A stretch of 64,000 nt of DNA from an uncultured SAR92 cluster bacterium. Its GTDB lineage: Bacteria; Pseudomonadota; Gammaproteobacteria; Pseudomonadales; Porticoccaceae. The DNA lies in contig CABZOI010000002.1 of assembly GCA_902527245.1 (NCBI GenBank), positions 1 through 64,000 on the forward strand, in the 5' to 3' direction. Below are positions 25,481 to 34,577 of this stretch, in pieces. The notes under the pieces were generated by a model. It saw only the letters and a program-made list of their open reading frames with translations. It was not told the origin of the DNA and made no database searches. A program made the position numbers and the translations under genes. Within the stretch, counting starts at the first letter, position 1; each line of letters starts with the position of its first letter.

Positions 25481-26146
25481 ATGATTATTGCTTCCAATCT
25501 AAGTAAGTCAGTCCAGTCTCCAGAAGGAACACTGAACATTCTATCTGATATAAATTTGAGCATTATGGAATCTGAAAGTCTCGCAATTGTGGGGCCATCT
25601 GGGTCAGGTAAATCTACACTTCTTGGAATTTTAGCCGGGCTGGACACGCCTACCTCTGGAGATGTGGTTATAAACAATAAAAATATTGTATCGATGAGTG
25701 AGGAGGAAAGAGCAAAGTATCGTTCAAAATATGTCGGTTTTGTATTTCAGTCGTTTCATTTGTTGCCTGGGCTTACAGCAATCGAAAATGTATCACTACC
25801 ACTTGAAATAAAAGATATTCCAAATACCGCTAGCCTTGCAAACGATTATCTTGAAATGGTTGGATTAAAAAATAGGGCACGTCATTATCCTCAGCAACTC
25901 TCGGGTGGTGAGCAACAGCGAGTTGCAGTTGCAAGAGCTTTTGCATGCCAACCAAAAATTTTATTTGCAGATGAACCGACTGGTAATTTAGATCAAAAGA
26001 CTGGAGCTAAATTGTCAAATTTACTTTTTGAACTTAACAAGAGTCAAAAGACGACACTAATTTTAGTAACACATGACATGCGACTTGCGAGCAGTTGTGA
26101 TAAAACGCTTAATTTATCTGACGGTAAGGCTGTGCCTAATAAATAG
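25481..26146 (+). CDS. ybbA: YbbA-type ABC transporter ATPase
   Basis: This 221-residue protein is an ABC ATPase of the LolD/MacB type. It has Walker A GPSGSGKST at 38-46, the Q-loop FVFQSFHLLPGLTA, the signature LSGGEQQR, Walker B ILFADEPTGNLD, and the H-loop VTHD. It pairs with the permease downstream, 15 bases away. In E. coli ybbA-ybbP lies beside tesA in the same way; the partner and substrate remain uncertain. Confidence 0.92.
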   Translation: MIIASNLSKSVQSPEGTLNILSDINLSIMESESLAIVGPSGSGKSTLLGILAGLDTPTSGDVVINNKNIVSMSEEERAKYRSKYVGFVFQSFHLLPGLTAIENVSLPLEIKDIPNTASLANDYLEMVGLKNRARHYPQQLSGGEQQRVAVARAFACQPKILFADEPTGNLDQKTGAKLSNLLFELNKSQKTTLILVTHDMRLASSCDKTLNLSDGKAVPNK

Positions 26147-26161
26147 TATTAGAAGATAGAT

Positions 26162-28669
26162 ATGCTTTCATTAAAAATACTTCTCAGAGCCTTGCGTGCT
26201 GGAGAGCTTAAAACAATTTTTATTTCATTATGTCTTTCTGTCGCAGTTGTTGCGGCTGTCTCTATTTTTGCTGAGCGGATTGAAAAAGCAATAGTAAATG
26301 AATCAAAAGAATTATTGGGAAGTGACTTCATTGTCAAAAGTAGCAAGCCTATTCCGCAAGTTTGGATTGAATATGCAGTTAATCGTAATATTGATGTAAG
26401 TAGGACACTTTCTTTCGCTTCAGTTGTTTTTTTTAATGAAAATATGCACCTCGCATATATTAAGGCTGTTGAGAGTAATTATCCTTTGAGAGGAAGCATT
26501 TTAACCTCTCAACTTCCATTTACATACGATGTAAAACAAATGGAAGAGTTTACATCCGGTCCAAAAGTAGGCGAAATATGGGTAGAATCAAGGTTATTAC
26601 CAATCTTAGATGTCGAAATTGGCTCTCAAATTGATATTGGTGAATCCTCTTTAACGATAACTAAAATTTTAATCGAGGAGCCAGAGGGTCCATCATTTTC
26701 TATATTGGGCTCGAGAATTCTTATGAATTTTGCTGATGTAGAATCAACAAATGTAGTTCAGCCAGGTAGTCGAGTTACACATAATCTGCTTGTTGCTTCA
26801 TCTGAAGAATCAGATATCAATAGTTATGTTAGTTGGGTAACAGAAAAAATGAGTCCTCATGATCAACTGATTAAACCAGAGGAAGCTCAAGAAAATATTT
26901 CTTCGACTATCGATAGAGGGAGAGTATTTTTGCTGCTTGCGGGCAGTATAGGTATCGTTTTAGCAGCGGTAGCGCTAGCGATGGCAAGTCATCTTTTTGC
27001 AACGAAACAAAAAACACAGGTAGCTCTTTTAAAGAGTTGGGGTTTGACGGAGTCGAGAGTTCGAAAGCTTTATGTCAATCAAAGTCTTTTTCTTGGTTTT
27101 GTTGGATCCTTTATAGGTTTATTTTTGGGATATATATTTCACTTATTCTTGATTGATATAGCTCGAGAATGGCTACCCACTATGCTACCCAATCCCGGAT
27201 TACAAAGCTTTCTAATAAGCATATTCACTGGTATTGCGTGTGTAATTGGTTTTATTCTCCCGGCACTTTGGCATCTCCCGAAACAGCCTCCAATATCGAT
27301 TCTAAAGGATGATGGAATGGGTCAATCAACTAGCATTATGGTGCGATTGATTGTGGGATTGTGTGTGATTATGGTCTTACTCTTTTTATATAGTAAAAAT
27401 GTCAGCATTACATTTGCAATGACGTTGGGAGTGTTATCTATTTCTACGATGGCGGCTCTGGTTGGTGGTTCCCTTTTTAGCATTGCGCTAGCCATGGGTA
27501 AATCAACGGGAGGATTTTTTAGAATAGGATTATCTAATCTATGGAGAAGAAAGAGTCATAACTTGATTCAATTAATCGGATTTTCATCGGCCATTTTCTT
27601 ATTTCTCGTTCTTGCGATTATCCGCAATTCACTGTTGGACGAGTGGCAACTGCAAATTGATGATGACTTACCCAATCACTTTTTCATCAATGTAAATGAA
27701 GATGATATTAAAGAAATTGATGATTATGCAGCTAAAAGTAAAGTTTCAAGTGCCGGATGGTACTCAATGACGAGAGCTAGAATAACATCTATTAATAATG
27801 AGCTTATTACTGAGGATCAAAGAGAGGCACATAGAGCTTATGACCGAGAGTTAAATCTGAGCTGGAGTGAAGATTTGCCAGCCGGTAACGAAGTGTCAAG
27901 TGGAAGTTGGTGGAAAGTAGATAATACAGAGAGTGCGGCTTCGCTGAAAGGAGACATTGCTCCAGTGTCTGTTGAGCATGATCTTGCGGGTGAGCTTGGT
28001 CTAAAGTTGGGTGATGTTATTACTTTTAGTGTTGGAGGTTTGAGTTTTGATGCAGAGGTTAGTAACACGAGAATACTTGATTGGGAAAAGATGACACCAA
28101 ATTTTTATTTTTTATTCCCTGAGGGGGCGTTAGAGGGTTTCCCCAGAACATCTATGACAAGTATGTATATACCTATTGAAAATAAAAGAATTATCAGTGA
28201 AATTTTGCGTGAGTATCCTACCATTCAAGTCATTGAGCTTGATAAAGTATTTGAAACAATAAAGAAAACAATAAATCAAGTAACGAGAGCCCTCGAGGCA
28301 ATGACCGTGTTGATTTTATTCTGCGGAATTATGGTACTGATCACGTCTGTCCATTTATCGATTAGTGAGCGAATGCGTGAGAGTGCTGTGCTTAGAACTT
28401 TTGGATGCGCTCGTAGGGATGTAGTTGTGGTTCAACTAATAGAGTTTCTTGCATTAGGACTTGTTTCAGGTCTTCTAGGTGCTCTTGGCGCGGAAATCGC
28501 AGTAGGAGTATTGTCGAGCACAGTTTTTGACTTTTCATTTAAGCTCCATCCTTGGATATGGGGTTTTGGACCATTATTAGGGATGGCCATAATAGCAATA
28601 TTTGGAATTATTTCTTGCAAATCGGCAATCTCGTCACCGCCTTTATCAACGTTAAGATCTTTTAATTAA
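26162..28669 (+). CDS. ybbP: YbbP-type ABC transporter permease (FtsX domains)
   Basis: The 835-residue protein has an N-terminal membrane helix, a large periplasmic region, and two FtsX/MacB-like membrane blocks. Helix groups lie around residues 250-420 and 690-830, each with the FtsX pattern (LLLAGSIGIVLAAVALAMASHL, and ERMRESAVLRTFGCARRDVV). The family uses ATP hydrolysis as a mechanical signal or to remove lipids or lipoproteins. It is paired with YbbA. Its 3' end is two bases from the convergent kinase gene. Confidence 0.92.
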   Translation: MLSLKILLRALRAGELKTIFISLCLSVAVVAAVSIFAERIEKAIVNESKELLGSDFIVKSSKPIPQVWIEYAVNRNIDVSRTLSFASVVFFNENMHLAYIKAVESNYPLRGSILTSQLPFTYDVKQMEEFTSGPKVGEIWVESRLLPILDVEIGSQIDIGESSLTITKILIEEPEGPSFSILGSRILMNFADVESTNVVQPGSRVTHNLLVASSEESDINSYVSWVTEKMSPHDQLIKPEEAQENISSTIDRGRVFLLLAGSIGIVLAAVALAMASHLFATKQKTQVALLKSWGLTESRVRKLYVNQSLFLGFVGSFIGLFLGYIFHLFLIDIAREWLPTMLPNPGLQSFLISIFTGIACVIGFILPALWHLPKQPPISILKDDGMGQSTSIMVRLIVGLCVIMVLLFLYSKNVSITFAMTLGVLSISTMAALVGGSLFSIALAMGKSTGGFFRIGLSNLWRRKSHNLIQLIGFSSAIFLFLVLAIIRNSLLDEWQLQIDDDLPNHFFINVNEDDIKEIDDYAAKSKVSSAGWYSMTRARITSINNELITEDQREAHRAYDRELNLSWSEDLPAGNEVSSGSWWKVDNTESAASLKGDIAPVSVEHDLAGELGLKLGDVITFSVGGLSFDAEVSNTRILDWEKMTPNFYFLFPEGALEGFPRTSMTSMYIPIENKRIISEILREYPTIQVIELDKVFETIKKTINQVTRALEAMTVLILFCGIMVLITSVHLSISERMRESAVLRTFGCARRDVVVVQLIEFLALGLVSGLLGALGAEIAVGVLSSTVFDFSFKLHPWIWGFGPLLGMAIIAIFGIISCKSAISSPPLSTLRSFN

Positions 28670-28671
28670 TT

Positions 28672-30120
28672 TTAGCTTTTTGGAAGTCTTATACTAAAGA
28701 CAGTATTTTTATTTTCGTCACATAAAACGGCGAGTTGCCCCTGATGCTGTTCTGCGATTATAAAATATGAGAATGACAGTCGTTGAGCGCTATCCATTTT
28801 TGATGGATTTTTGTTTGCAATAGAATTTGCTGGAGACTCGAAAGAGTCAAACAAATATTGCTGCTCATGATCATTCATTGGGGCTCCATTATGTTTTATT
28901 TTGATCCAAATATCTTCATAAAAAGAGGAAACTGATATATTAACTTTTGGTATGTACTCATTGGTGTCAACTTTACCCATAAAAAGGCAAGCATTTCGCA
29001 AAATACTTAAGAACACTTGTTTTAACTCGACAGCATAACAGGCGATCTGAGGTAAGTCCTTGCTGTAATCTTTCTCTATCAGCACATCATGGAAGTTAAC
29101 GCCGGAGTTAATTGATAGCACGTCTGATGCCAGCTCTAAGCTTTGATCTATTACTTGCAAAATATTTTCATTTGCCTTTGGCTGACTACCATCACTTGAA
29201 AAATTAATAAGGTTTTCAATTACCACTCTCGCTTGTTGAGCACCGATTAGACTATTATCGAGCTCTTCCATGATCTCGGATTTTTCATAACTATCTTGTG
29301 CGAGTTGCGACCTTGCCATCTTTATCGATTTAAGCATCTCACTAATGGGCATATTGACATCATGTGCCATTATTGAAGCTAATTCTCCCATAAGAGACAT
29401 TTTATCTTTTTGTATCAATTGAGTTTCAGAATTTACACGGAGTGTTATGTCGTCAATTAGTAGAACTACTCCAGTTTTTGAGCTTTCACGAAGGGGATAT
29501 ATCAAGATATCAAAGTGATACTGGCCTTTTTGACTGTACTTGATTGATACTGTAGTTTGTTTCTTTTGTGCTTCTGCTATTTTCTCTGGCCTTACCGTGA
29601 TATCAGGATAGGCGTCCCATAAATATTGGCCCATCGCATTTTTGTTCGAAATCCCAGAAATCTCCTCAGCTTTCGGATTCCACTGTGTAATACGATTCTT
29701 TTTGTCAAGTCCAATTAACATCAGTGGCATTGAGGATAAAACCTCTGCTATATATGCCTCAGATTTTTTTAACTGCCTTGCGGTAGTTAAATGCTTTTTT
29801 ACTTCACTTTCTAGCGCGTTATTAGTTTCTGACAACTTTTCGTTGGATTCTTTTAGTGTAGCTGTTCGTTCAGAGACTCTTTTTTCAAGATCTTCCTTGA
29901 TATCAATTAAATACTTATTAAACCGACTTATTTTCCTTTGGGTAAATGTTATTTTTATCAAAGCAATTAACAGTGCAATGATTAGTAGCCCACTTGAGGT
30001 ATTAGCAACATATTGCCAATTAGTGGAGCCGTCTGTTTCTCTGAATGCTGAGAAGATATCAACTTCTGCCAAGCTGTACCCTGAAAAAAACAAAAGTATT
30101 ATAATTAGAACATATTGCAT
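28672..30120 (-). CDS. Degenerate PAS sensor histidine kinase
   Basis: This 482-residue protein starts with a signal-like segment, MQYVLIIILLFFSGYSLA, then a short loop and a membrane helix (SSGLLIIALLIALIKITF), a coiled coil, a PAS domain (AEVLSSMPLMLIGLD), and a kinase core. The H-box reads MAHDVNMPI, in place of AHEINNPL. The N-box Asn is kept (SILRNACLFM), but the G1 motif is KHNG instead of DNG and the G2 glycine motif is missing. ATP binding may be impaired. ATG 30120 lies 16 bases after the DUF411 stop and gives the signal segment; longer starts overlap that gene. No response regulator is nearby. Confidence 0.8.
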   Translation of the reverse strand: MQYVLIIILLFFSGYSLAEVDIFSAFRETDGSTNWQYVANTSSGLLIIALLIALIKITFTQRKISRFNKYLIDIKEDLEKRVSERTATLKESNEKLSETNNALESEVKKHLTTARQLKKSEAYIAEVLSSMPLMLIGLDKKNRITQWNPKAEEISGISNKNAMGQYLWDAYPDITVRPEKIAEAQKKQTTVSIKYSQKGQYHFDILIYPLRESSKTGVVLLIDDITLRVNSETQLIQKDKMSLMGELASIMAHDVNMPISEMLKSIKMARSQLAQDSYEKSEIMEELDNSLIGAQQARVVIENLINFSSDGSQPKANENILQVIDQSLELASDVLSINSGVNFHDVLIEKDYSKDLPQIACYAVELKQVFLSILRNACLFMGKVDTNEYIPKVNISVSSFYEDIWIKIKHNGAPMNDHEQQYLFDSFESPANSIANKNPSKMDSAQRLSFSYFIIAEQHQGQLAVLCDENKNTVFSIRLPKS

Positions 30121-30136
30121 AATTTCTATTTTAGAG

Positions 30137-30646
30137 CTACGGGATATCCCTCGAATGCAAAAATATTTCATCCATGTTGTCCTCAAATATTGTCAGGACA
30201 ACGTAATCATCTGATCTGCCACCCATTTCCATACCAGGAGATCCAACAGGCATACCTGGAACACTCAATCCTTTGGAATTTTCAGAGGGATTTTCGAGAT
30301 ATTTCTTTATTACATCCGCGTGTATATGCCCCTCAAAAACATATCCGTCTTTTGAAATGCTTGTATGACACGATTGGTGCTTGAGATTGATTTTGTATTC
30401 ACTTTTTATTGCATTCAGATTTTGATGATCTTTTTCAATTATGTTAATCCCAGCTTCCCGCGCATGTTTTATCCATTTTTTACAACATCCACAGAAAGGG
30501 GTTTTGTGTACTGTCAGTGTCAAATTACCTTCGTTCGCTAAAGGTATTGAAGTGGAGCCAGTAAAAAATACTGCTGTTAAAAAGAACACTAAGAATTTGA
30601 TGCTGAGGTTAAACTTTATATTATTTTCCTGAATTAATTGGTTCAT
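30137..30646 (-). CDS. DUF411 periplasmic metal-binding-type protein
   Basis: The 169-residue protein has a signal peptide (IKFLVFFLTAVFFTGSTSIPLA) and then the DUF411 pattern. The Cys motif CGCC lies in KTPFCGCCKKW, a further Cys in SCHT, His residues in GHIHADVI, and the C-terminal GLSVPGMPVGSPGME. DUF411 proteins are often found with copper systems. The ATG at 30646 is chosen; the frame also has an upstream TTG. It is cotranscribed with the kinase 16 bases downstream and lies 80 bases after selO. Confidence 0.85.
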   Translation of the reverse strand: MNQLIQENNIKFNLSIKFLVFFLTAVFFTGSTSIPLANEGNLTLTVHKTPFCGCCKKWIKHAREAGINIIEKDHQNLNAIKSEYKINLKHQSCHTSISKDGYVFEGHIHADVIKKYLENPSENSKGLSVPGMPVGSPGMEMGGRSDDYVVLTIFEDNMDEIFLHSRDIP

Positions 30647-30726
30647 CGCAAAGGCCAAATCTAGTTGATCTTCTCAAGTATAGTGTCATCACTTAAATTT
30701 TCTAGTTATTTAACTTTTTTGTCGGA

Positions 30727-32208
30727 TTAAGACGAGCAACTCAGTCGTTGTGATTGTAAGTCAGTGGGAAGTGGTAGTGAATATTGATGGTATTCTTTAT
30801 GCTCCTCGTATGGGGCTTGTATTATTTTCTCGAGAACTTTAAGTTCTTGGAAGTCACCCTCTTCCGCCTTTTTTATTGCTTTCTGAGCAAGATGATTTCT
30901 GAGCGTGAATTTTGGATTAACTTCTAACATAGAACGTTGGTGCACTTTACTACTTTTGACTTTAAGCTCATAGTTTTCAAACCATTCCTTTATGTCATCA
31001 ATACTACTAAATAATTTAAGAATTTCATCTGTGAGTGATCGTGTATAACTTAACTGTCTGAAAAAGAAAGTATAGTCAACCTTGTCTCTTTGCATGATTT
31101 TGAGAAGTTCATCTTGAAATTTATAGTCAGTTGAATCATCTGAAAGACCAAGTTTTTGGTTCATAAGAGCCCTGTACTCCTTCACCAGAGCAGGCTCATA
31201 TAGTCGCAATTTTGAAATAATCTTCTCTTTTTTTATTAGTTTTGAGAAGCATGTCGCGAGAGCATTTAAATTCCAAAGGCCGACTGAAGGTTGATTATGA
31301 AAAGAGTATCTCCCGTTATAATCAGATGTGTTACATATCCACATTGGGTCATATCTATCTAAGAAACCGAAAGGACCATAGTCCAAAGTGTTACCAAGAA
31401 TACACATATTATCGGTATTCAAAACGCCATGGCAAAATCCTACGGATTGCCATTTTGCGATTAAGGAGGCTGTTTTTAAAATAGTATTCGTAAAAAATCT
31501 TTCATATTTATCTTTGAGATTATTCCACTCGGGAAAGTGTCTGTTTATTGAGTAATCAATGAGAGCAATTAAGGCATCAGGCTGCTCGGAGTAATAAAAA
31601 TGTTCCAATGAACCAAACCGAATATGATTTTTAGCGACTCTGCATAGGATTGCGCCACTTTCAATTGATTCTCTTTGAACTTTAGTATCGCTGGTAACAA
31701 GGCACAACGCTCTTGTTGTTGGTATCCCAAGACCATGCATTGCTTCAGAGCAAAGATATTCTCGAATACTGGATCTAAGCACGGCTCTCCCATCAGCGAA
31801 TCTAGAATACGGAGTTAATCCTGCTCCCTTAAGTTGAATATCCCAAAGTGATTCTATTTGCGTAGTTTGATCTTTTGTTGCCAGCTCTCCCAAGGTAATT
31901 GCTCGACCATCGCCCAATTGACCTGCCCACGTTCCGAATTGATGCCCCGAATAAACTACCGATATTGGTTTAAGACTTAATCCCGCCAAATTTCCTGACA
32001 TCAAATCTTTAGCTCTTTCTGTCTCAAAAATATTGTGTTTCAAGCCGAGTTCAATACAAAAACGTTTATTCACATGAATTAAACGTGGGTTCTCTAGTGG
32101 AGTCGGTTGACAGTTACTAAAAATATCGATGTCTTTTGAGTTGAAATGATCAAAGAAATCACTGTTGAGTGAGTTAATCAGATTATCAAATGTGTTTACA
32201 GCACTCAT
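30727..32208 (-). CDS. selO: Protein adenylyltransferase SelO (YdiU)
   Basis: This 493-residue pseudokinase-fold protein transfers AMP to target proteins and supports redox homeostasis. Motifs are YSGHQFGTWAGQLGDGRA, LKGAGLTPYSRFADGRA, and HGVLNTDNM with DYGPFGFLD. It ends LSCSS; the Cys third from the end corresponds to the selenocysteine of eukaryotic SelO. The ATG follows the preceding gene's TAA by one base, so translation is probably coupled. Confidence 0.95.
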   Translation of the reverse strand: MSAVNTFDNLINSLNSDFFDHFNSKDIDIFSNCQPTPLENPRLIHVNKRFCIELGLKHNIFETERAKDLMSGNLAGLSLKPISVVYSGHQFGTWAGQLGDGRAITLGELATKDQTTQIESLWDIQLKGAGLTPYSRFADGRAVLRSSIREYLCSEAMHGLGIPTTRALCLVTSDTKVQRESIESGAILCRVAKNHIRFGSLEHFYYSEQPDALIALIDYSINRHFPEWNNLKDKYERFFTNTILKTASLIAKWQSVGFCHGVLNTDNMCILGNTLDYGPFGFLDRYDPMWICNTSDYNGRYSFHNQPSVGLWNLNALATCFSKLIKKEKIISKLRLYEPALVKEYRALMNQKLGLSDDSTDYKFQDELLKIMQRDKVDYTFFFRQLSYTRSLTDEILKLFSSIDDIKEWFENYELKVKSSKVHQRSMLEVNPKFTLRNHLAQKAIKKAEEGDFQELKVLEKIIQAPYEEHKEYHQYSLPLPTDLQSQRLSCSS

Positions 32209-32209
32209 T

Positions 32210-33316
32210 TTAGTGTTGGATGTCGAGATCTTGTTTTTTTAGACGAGCAAGATTCTCAGCATGGAGTGAGCTAATGTAAAGCCAATCCTTTGTTTCAAGT
32301 GCACCTGTGTTGGTATGGTAAGCTCCTTTTGGATCTTGCAGGGAAATAATTACCTCACCCTCTGAATCAATTGCAAAAACATGGCTATAGTGCACTGCGC
32401 TTGGCCTTAAAAATTCTGGGAATCTTTGTATTACTTTTCGCAGATTGGGATAAGCTGAAAGAGTGTCTAAAATATTATTTCTTGGTGAGACTAATCCGAT
32501 CCAAAACCGATCATCCTTACCCCGCACAATGTTGTCCGGAAATCCTGGAAGATTTTCAATAAAAATTTCAGACGAACCAGATTTTGGACCCTTCAACCAA
32601 TACTTGTGGATTTTATATGATCCAGTTTCAGCAACAAGAAAAAAATCGTACTCATGACTCACAGCAATTCCGTTCGCAAAATTTAAACCGCTCATTAAAA
32701 CTTGGGTTACATCAGACCTAGGATCATAGACTAAAACTCTGCCATGTCCTCCATGCTCAGTGATGTCGAGGAGACTCGCTGCATAAGTGCCTCCATTTTT
32801 TGCGCTAAATTTTGTAGATGCATCACTGAAGATGATCTTCCCATCATCAGTAATGTCAACATCATCAGCATATAATATTTTTTCATTGTTAACTGAGTCT
32901 GTGAGCACTGATATTTCGTTATTAGGAGAAATTTTGAGCAAGCCTCGATATGCATCAGCGACGATAAGGTTTTCATTCTCATCGAAAACAATCCCTAAAG
33001 GACTTCCTTTCGTGTTTACCCACTTTGTAACACTGCCATTTTTGGGATTATATTTGATTATCCATCCTTCTCTGACTGCAGCGAATATTTGATTATTTAA
33101 TTCAGCTAAATCTTCTGGTCCCGACATTTCATTCAAGGGGATGAACTCGACCTTACTTAATATGTTATTAGGAGCAAATTTTCCCGTGAATCCTTCATTT
33201 CTTGGTGCATCCCAAGCAATTGGGCTAATAGGTACTGGCCAAAAACAGAGATAAGTAAAAAAAAGGGTGCTGAGAATGAGAGAGAGGTGTTTTACAGACA
33301 CAAGATTTTTGTTCAT
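32210..33316 (-). CDS. SMP-30/strictosidine synthase-like beta-propeller protein
   Basis: The 368-residue protein has an N-terminal membrane segment (LSLILSTLFFTYLCFWPVPI) and then a six-bladed beta-propeller. Repeated blade motifs are visible, such as GIVFDENENLIVADAYRGL, ANGIAVSHEYDFFLVAET and FPDNIVRGKDDRFWIG. The C-terminus resembles strictosidine-synthase and APMAP-type proteins. It is likely exported or anchored facing the periplasm and may hydrolyse lactones, but the substrate is unknown. It is the first gene of the probable minus-strand unit with selO, DUF411 and the kinase. Confidence 0.85.
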   Translation of the reverse strand: MNKNLVSVKHLSLILSTLFFTYLCFWPVPISPIAWDAPRNEGFTGKFAPNNILSKVEFIPLNEMSGPEDLAELNNQIFAAVREGWIIKYNPKNGSVTKWVNTKGSPLGIVFDENENLIVADAYRGLLKISPNNEISVLTDSVNNEKILYADDVDITDDGKIIFSDASTKFSAKNGGTYAASLLDITEHGGHGRVLVYDPRSDVTQVLMSGLNFANGIAVSHEYDFFLVAETGSYKIHKYWLKGPKSGSSEIFIENLPGFPDNIVRGKDDRFWIGLVSPRNNILDTLSAYPNLRKVIQRFPEFLRPSAVHYSHVFAIDSEGEVIISLQDPKGAYHTNTGALETKDWLYISSLHAENLARLKKQDLDIQH

Positions 33317-33481: not shown

Positions 33482-34577
33482 ATGGAAATTACTTCATTTA
33501 AAACAAAATTAACTGATATTCAGCAGAGGATTGAGCTCTTGAGGGGGTATCTTTGACTATGGTGCCAAAGCAGAAAGATTAGAAGAGGTTGAGTTAGAGC
33601 TTGGAGCCCCCGATGTATGGGAAAATCAGGATCACGCTCAAAAACTTGGAAAAGAAAGAGCTAGTTTGGAGTTAGTTGTTGAAACAATAAGAGATTTATC
33701 AAGAACGTTTGATGAGATCTCAGAATTACTTGATTTAGCAATTAACGAGGAAGATGAATCTACTTTTGAAGCCTTACTATCTGATACTCAAGTTCTAGAG
33801 GAAAAATTAGAGATTTTGGAATTCCGGAGAATGTTCTCCGGATCAATGGATGTAAATTCTGCTTTTGTGGATATACAATCTGGCTCTGGTGGAACCGAAG
33901 CTCAAGACTGGGCTGAGATGCTCTTAAGAATGTATCTTCGTTGGTGTGAAGCAAAGGGATTTAAAGTTGATTTGATTGAAAACTCCCCTGGTGATGTGGC
34001 AGGAATAAAAAGTGCTACTTTCGAAGTATCAGGAGAGTATGCGTTTGGCTGGCTCAGAACCGAAATCGGTGTGCATCGATTGGTTAGAAAATCTCCATTT
34101 GATTCAAGTAATAAAAGACACACCTCATTTGCCGCTGTTTTTGTATCACCTGATATTGATGATGATATAGATATTGAAATTGATCCAAGTGATGTAAGAA
34201 CAGACACCTATAGGGCATCAGGTGCGGGAGGTCAGCACGTTAATAAAACTGACTCGGCAGTGAGATTGACGCATCTTCCCACTGGAGTAGTTGTTCAAAG
34301 CCAAAGTCAAAGATCACAACATCAGAATCGAGATAAATGTTGGCAGATGCTAAGGGCAAAATTATATGAGCTCGAAGTGCAGAAGAGAAAAGATGTGGCT
34401 CAAAAAGATGAGGACAACAAGGCTGATATTGGTTGGGGAAGTCAAATTCGTTCTTATGTTCTGGATGATTCGCGTGTCAAAGATTTGAGAACGAGTGTTG
34501 AAACAAGAAATACACAAGCTGTTTTGGATGGTAGTTTAGATCAGTTTATAGTGGAATCTCTGAAAGCAGGGTTATAA
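33482..34577 (+). CDS. prfB: Peptide chain release factor 2 (programmed +1 frameshift)
   Basis: RF2 terminates translation at UAA and UGA. The product is 364 residues: 24 codons from ATG 33482, an in-frame TGA at 33554-33556, then +1 continuation at GAC 33555. The GGQ motif is in [11 protein letters not shown], and the SPF anticodon-like tripeptide is in VRKSPFDSS. The E. coli protein is 365 residues. A TATACT hexamer at 33423-33428 may be part of its promoter. lysS follows after six bases, the conserved prfB-lysS order. Confidence 0.97.
33543..33557 (+). promoter_or_regulatory. RF2 autoregulatory frameshift site
   Basis: The sequence AGGGGGTATCTTTGAC contains the internal Shine-Dalgarno-like AGGGGG, the slippery CTT codon and the TGA stop followed by C. 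Low RF2 makes the ribosome pause at TGA and slip +1 from CTT, so RF2 controls its own synthesis. It matches the canonical site nearly base for base. Confidence 0.97.

Follow-up and report, generated by a model that had tools for sequence, protein, structure and literature searches.

A conserved family of probable pseudo-histidine kinases and its gene neighbourhood in a SAR92 cluster bacterium

To our knowledge, a role has been worked out for few pseudo-histidine kinases, among them DivL of Caulobacter. As described in PMC4211667, DivL has lost the phosphoacceptor His, its N, G1, F and G2 boxes being intact. PMC9491836 describes a pseudokinase variant of ChrS from Corynebacterium glutamicum, a laboratory-evolved frameshift that acts with a partner kinase. 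Here, we present a locus encoding a further candidate of this kind, namely the last of four minus-strand genes occupying positions 33316–28672 in a 64,000-nucleotide stretch (hereafter, the window) from an uncultured SAR92 cluster bacterium. The window represents contig 2 of a 1.9 Mb assembly (GCA_902527245.1), which is 94% complete and has marine Porticoccaceae/SAR92-clade genomes as its closest named relatives.

Other genes of the locus have described counterparts as well. The DUF411 structure 6wis is named CopG in PMC7558416, where copG is linked, in review, to copA, cusCBA and multicopper oxidase genes; for SelO, the Cys272–Cys476 bond, formed by a regulatory cysteine pair, is described in PMC8097203. 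Our analysis leads us to consider it probable that the locus is made of two independently conserved pairs, SMP30–SelO and CopG–kinase, placed end to end, and that the kinase is a non-phosphorylating pseudo-histidine kinase acting by contact. The likely discovery here is the conserved pseudo-histidine kinase family itself; in the open-access literature, no paper naming this family by title or opening abstract was found among the matches listed.

Loss of the ATP-site motifs in the kinase family

The Pfam PAS and HATPase_c domains scored over cut-off in the window kinase, and no HisKA match was obtained. Its layout comprises a signal peptide, a short conserved segment (TDGSTNWQYVANTS), a transmembrane helix, a coiled coil, PAS, DHp-like helices and a degenerate CA domain, the signal peptide and the transmembrane helix being assigned by inspection. 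In the segment preceding the membrane helix, T33, W35, Q36 and N40 are invariant in 33 aligned sequences. The start codon ATG 30120 is favoured over TTG 30186 because the kinases of two congeners are 482 amino acids (aa) long. The gene and its diagnostic positions are given below, with counts referring to 99 members of the family.

28672..30120 (listed TTG start 30186), minus strand: predicted membrane PAS pseudo-histidine kinase, 482 aa (Pfam, alignment and model)
29362..29364, minus strand: phosphoacceptor-position His253, H in the window
28993..28995, minus strand: N-box position 376, N in the window and two congeners, replaced by H, Y, C or S in 96 of 99
28891..28893, minus strand: G1-box position 410, catalytic Asp replaced by His in 97 of 99 and by Phe in 2 of 99
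28780..28782, minus strand: G2-box position 447, the GLGL Gly replaced by Arg in 88, His in 10 and Pro in 1 of 99

These 99 pseudo-kinases were obtained from 114 distinct sequences by setting aside 11 canonical outgroup members, two intact kinases of the f4 family, L196_4337 (a different kinase) and L206_1 (located at a contig edge and keeping GLGL). In a first alignment, 36 of 36 kinase sequences lacked the usual G1 Asp and G2 glycines. The window kinase reads HNGAP at G1 instead of DxGxG and QRLSF at G2 instead of GLGL; of the features of an active HisKA kinase, it has the phosphoacceptor His, while its G1 and G2 boxes fail. All 11 canonical outgroup rows have Asn at +4 from His; at least 77 of the 99 pseudo-kinases carry Ile, Leu, Ala, Lys, Met or Val at this position, and 9 carry Thr. 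The protein names of the first-pass annotation (SMP-30, SelO, DUF411 and a sensor kinase) were upheld, except that calling the last a membrane kinase overlooked the lost ATP-site motifs. For the same family of proteins, the label "sensor histidine kinase" is misleading.

On a tree computed with the motif columns masked, the 99 pseudo-kinases form one clade (SH-aLRT 100). The fewest changes on this tree are one for G1, one for G2, two for the N-box and 15 for His (14 when unmasked), the exact counts being soft because the tree was built quickly and many of its branches are flagged as long. The ATP-site motifs were lost once, in the ancestor of the family (G1 Asp to His, G2 GLGL to RLSF); before this loss, the lineage would have been one of normal histidine kinases. 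Close orthologues (E < 1e-140) were found in 19 of 145 genomes of the order, distributed over 11 families. The G1 Asp is missing from the 17 orthologues of families other than f4. In the two f4 genomes, whose kinases fall in a sister branch, the H, N, G1 and G2 motifs are intact. Orthologues are also present in the cultivable relatives Marinobacterium and Amphritea. A class-level sample of 369 genomes yielded five more carriers of the degenerate form outside the order, together with 14 weaker sequences that are canonical-type kinases, one having Asn for the G1 Asp. Across the samples searched, the family spans ten families of one order and four families outside it. Such a distribution offers a natural series, composed of a sister branch with intact motifs, one ATP-site loss and then repeated loss of the phosphoacceptor, which would allow a direct test of the role of a two-component receptor once phosphorylation is impossible.

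With the catalytic motifs gone and the neighbours varying between families, the kinase gene might be regarded as decaying and functionless. We find this extremely improbable: long open frames occur in the 99 sequences (430 aa being the entry limit), the new RLSF and HNG motifs are nearly fixed among them, and dN/dS is 0.03–0.21 in 11 of 13 pairs, within the range of neighbouring genes. The gene has been maintained under purifying selection after the motif loss.

Another reading would keep the protein within phosphotransfer, the kinase being still active with an altered ATP site, or its His being phosphorylated in trans so that it serves as a phosphotransfer protein. It finds support in the His253 position, which is His in 70 of 99 sequences, as well as in the +1 Asp, the +5 Pro and the F-box Phe, each present in 99 of 99. 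However, the G1 Asp and the G2 Gly are lost in 99 of 99, and His itself is lost in 29 of 99 (20 Gln, 5 Tyr, 3 Arg and 1 Asn) through about 15 changes, which makes this reading, to our mind, quite unlikely.

An AlphaFold (AF2) model of the window protein (pLDDT 80.5, pTM 0.56) combines long helices with a PAS-like region and a CA-type fold, and its C-terminal half matches histidine kinases, DivL included, and pyruvate dehydrogenase kinases at Z ~18. Our preferred view, that of a pseudo-kinase acting by contact, implies a protein that would neither bind ATP nor have kinase or phosphatase activity and would work through protein–protein contact. It would be a dimeric membrane receptor passing its signal on by such contact, as a scaffold or an allosteric partner. 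The signal route would be the PAS–coiled-coil–DHp–CA frame, with conformational transmission taking the place of phosphorylation.

The SMP30–SelO and DUF411–kinase pairs

The genes surrounding the kinase, along with one non-coding element, are the following.

32210..33316, minus strand: strictosidine-synthase-like/SMP-30-type beta-propeller, 368 aa, with an N-terminal signal anchor (by inspection)
30727..32208, minus strand: SelO protein adenylyltransferase, 493 aa
30677..30704, minus strand: promoter-like block TAGAAA-16-TATACT in the SelO–DUF411 interval, conserved in the genus (consensus scan, 9/12 matches)
30137..30646 (alternative start 30658), minus strand: DUF411/CopG-type periplasmic protein, predicted to bind copper (Pfam)
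25481..28669, plus strand: YbbA/YbbP-type ABC transporter, convergent with the pseudo-kinase
33482..34577, plus strand: prfB, the divergent flank of SMP30–SelO

The initially annotated arrangement, four minus-strand genes separated by 1, 80 and 16 bases, is borne out by the open reading frame coordinates, the gaps of 80 and 16 holding with starts at ATG 30646 for DUF411 and ATG 30120 for the kinase. We propose that they make up two units. The first would be SMP30–SelO, tightly spaced and diverging from prfB; the second, convergent with ybbAP, would be the CopG-type copper protein followed by the membrane PAS pseudo-histidine kinase.

The propeller protein matched Pfam Str_synth (1.4e-22), SGL (1.4e-12) and SSL_N (6.6e-11), all over cut-off, and its best PDB relatives are mostly strictosidine synthases. 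SelO matched Pfam SelO PF02696 (2.3e-134) and reached 535.9 bits with PRK00029.1 against a cut-off of 431, lying below the cut-offs (900 and 850) of two equivalog models. In alignment to 6eac and 6iii, it retains the NTDN and DYGPFG active-site motifs; the Cys in ICN and in the C-terminal SCSS align with the regulatory pair of 6eac and are probably in the same positions as the Cys272–Cys476 pair. The DUF411 protein (Pfam DUF411, 4e-18) aligns to 6wis over the Cys and Met motifs (E 5.4e-24). Its motifs CGCCKKW, SCHT and PGMPVGSPGMEMG occur in 11 cluster copies checked, two of them being the same genomes twice. Judging by CxCC, further Cys residues and a Met-rich tail, the protein fits the CopG class and is predicted to bind copper.

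Each of the four proteins was searched for in 80 genomes of the family, after which the neighbourhoods were fetched. SMP30 gave a match in 42 genomes, and in all 24 with E <= 1e-100, it adjoins SelO on the same strand with 4–139 bases between match ends. The other 18 comprise two genomes (G042 and G059) with a contig-end fragment beside SelO, 11 with weaker homologues not on the SelO contig (one of these, G044, has no SelO) and five with scraps only. prfB accompanies SMP30–SelO in those neighbourhoods of relatives that cover this flank. In the 145-genome sample of the order, where adjacency was judged by coordinates and contig breaks may hide some links, the cut-offs applied gave SelO in 132 genomes, SMP30 in 41, DUF411 in 70 and a match to the kinase in 52. 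Outside the family, no kinase–SelO, kinase–DUF411, SelO–DUF411 or SMP30–SelO neighbours were found by coordinates in this sample, the nearest SMP30–SelO distance being 13 kb (genome G185).

DUF411 lies directly 5′ of the kinase on the same strand in 9 of 9 distinct genomes of one clade of the kinase tree (SH-aLRT 88), which sits beside five genomes having UPF0014 and lacking DUF411. The exact four-gene order without an intruder was seen in all three genomes of the window genus that were searched, so it is not a peculiarity of one genome, but it is contiguous in that genus only. A four-gene operon as the general state is therefore rejected. In the six genomes of the clade outside the genus, a gene of the UPF0014 cluster (a name tested on one copy) precedes DUF411 on the opposite strand; SelO lies beyond it in five, and the contig of the sixth (L216) stops short of SelO. 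In L219, UPF0014 and DUF411 are additionally separated by a short open frame. In the simplest history, DUF411 would have entered once beside the kinase and UPF0014 would later have been lost in the window genus, a loss by which SelO and DUF411 would have come together. Elsewhere in the family, the search for a SelO–DUF411 link gave one case (G016), with two opposite-strand genes in between, and in the order sample, none were adjacent.

SelO and the kinase were also compared in 54 genomes of the family, a set that leaves out the G002 kinase as a non-orthologue (30% identity; 56 genomes remaining) and then G019 and G067, which have no SelO. The two genes lie within 2 kb on one strand in 26 genomes; 6 have them at a greater distance on a shared contig and strand, and 22 on another contig or strand, with contig breaks possibly hiding some links (for example, in G066). 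Considering the 5′ neighbour of the kinase in 103 distinct loci (the 99 pseudo-kinases, the two f4 rows, L196_4337 and L206), we found it in a metal-type cluster in 24 (DUF411 in 9, UPF0014 in 5 and ArsP_1 permease in 10); SelO is directly 5′ in 22, and the remaining loci show varied genes or contig ends.

In the SelO–DUF411 interval, the three genus genomes share a block that ends in ACTATACTTG; this end is invariant in the three, effectively two independent sequences. The promoter-like element in this interval might represent a separate promoter for the DUF411–kinase pair; in the promoter/terminator consensus scan as a whole, total matches were not above shuffles.

All of this bears on the proposal of the first-pass annotation that the four genes form one transcription unit, an envelope redox or metal stress module combining AMPylation by cytoplasmic SelO, a propeller and CopG in the periplasm, and the kinase as the sensor. 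The common strand, the short gaps, the order kept in three of three genus members and the metal-type and SelO neighbours in 24 and 22 of 103 loci would agree with such a module. Yet SelO and DUF411 are separated by the UPF0014 gene on the opposite strand in five of nine genomes (that is, in five of the six lying outside the genus) and probably in a sixth, the blocks lie apart in other relatives, the order sample shows no linkage beyond the family, a promoter-like block stands 5′ of DUF411, and the kinase lacks the ATP-site motifs. Hence, we regard a single module as unlikely.

Several observations weigh against our interpretation of two pairs and a contact-acting pseudo-kinase. SelO and the kinase are close together in 26 of 54 genomes, too often for this to be called meaningless, and the promoter-like block is weak, being based on two independent sequences. 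The window genus keeps both His and the N-box Asn and is less degenerate than most; the 70 of 99 proteins that retain His might be phosphorylated in trans. A contig-edge relative outside the 99 (L206/G140) keeps GLGL at G2 with HNG at G1. Moreover, the kinase tree is quick and has flagged long branches, two of the 13 pairs (W–L122 and L153–L154) have saturated dS and gave no kinase ratio, and copies shorter than 430 aa were not entered, so broken kinase copies would be missed. As for the L206 (G140) copy itself, it might be either an intermediate or an assembly effect.

Because SelO is the 5′ gene in 22 and CopG in 9 of the 103 loci, we also leave a slim chance that the pseudo-kinase senses the copper or thiol state of the envelope via CopG and controls SelO by direct contact. 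If true, a dead kinase would steer the kinase-fold AMPylase SelO, providing a phosphotransfer-free signalling route from the membrane to the cytoplasm.

Flanking genes and candidate partners

On its 3′ side, the kinase has ybbP as a convergent neighbour in 37 of the 103 distinct loci. On the 5′ side, a metal theme is hinted at, with limited support, in one family. In 10 distinct loci (L128, L130, L133, L147, L149, L159 and others), a permease of one cluster and the pseudo-kinase are arranged head to head, and the permease copy tested was assigned to ArsP_1 and has a Cys-rich N-terminus. Two tested ArsP_1 permeases scored below the SO_0444 and SaoE cut-offs, and one tested UPF0014 protein scored below the FetB cut-off; therefore, we do not call these neighbours Cu/Zn or iron exporters.

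In genome G100 (L196 4337 and 5886), the pseudo-kinase and a second kinase, of canonical type, converge with 28 bases between them. A 6-pyruvoyl-tetrahydropterin synthase (L193 4910–5275) lies directly beside an intact f4 kinase. This synthase was considered as a neighbour common to intact and degenerate kinases and was rejected, as none of the other open frames in the compared neighbourhoods matched it.

The genome has seven receiver-domain matches, all of them next to, or part of, other kinases. PhoB lies next to a PhoR-like kinase and NtrC next to NtrB; a LytR/BtsR-like regulator adjoins a 383-aa kinase without an NCBIfam match at 1e-20; and a hybrid kinase, which itself holds two receivers, is flanked by a PleD-like protein and a single-domain regulator. 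The names PhoR, LytR/BtsR and PleD are best matches below curated cut-offs. Among these seven matches of a 94%-complete assembly, no adjacent or orphan cognate response regulator for the pseudo-kinase was found.

At the other end of the locus, prfB starts with ATG at 33482, and its frame stays open as far as GGG TAT CTT TGA C, with the stop at 33554–33556 (segment 33482–33557, plus strand). This sequence resembles the well-known site of programmed +1 frameshifting in the release factor 2 gene. Since the apparent frameshift site lies upstream, the open reading frame listed at 33666 is only part of prfB.

Comparison with known systems

In two of the accompanying proteins, likeness to known structures goes along with a difference in gene setting. 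The window SelO retains the active-site and regulatory-Cys positions of 6eac and 6iii, but it is paired with an SMP30-like gene. The CxCC, SCH and Met-rich PGMPVGSPGMEM motifs of CopG (6wis, 6wje) are also present in the window DUF411 protein, which, by contrast, is linked to a pseudo-kinase.

As to the kinase, PAS kinases of the AtoS/FixL/NtrB type are among its best general models and PDB relatives; in the canonical relatives examined, however, H-E-x-x-N, N, D-x-G-x-G and GLGL are, with few exceptions, retained. The ChrS variant resembles the window family in that its CA domain is destroyed and signalling is still affected through a partner kinase, yet it represents a single laboratory-evolved frameshift as opposed to a natural conserved family. 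Finally, DivL shares with the window protein the PAS and DHp/CA frame, and kinase activity is not expected of the latter; the DivL structure 4q20 matches the model at Z 17.9 over 203 aligned residues with an rmsd of 4.2. DivL demonstrates that contact signalling by a non-enzymatic kinase frame can work, and by analogy, a DivL-like way of working might apply here. The DivL-type pattern, in which His is replaced and the other boxes are intact, is nevertheless reversed in the window protein: as in a mirror image, its family loses the N, G1 and G2 boxes while His is often kept.

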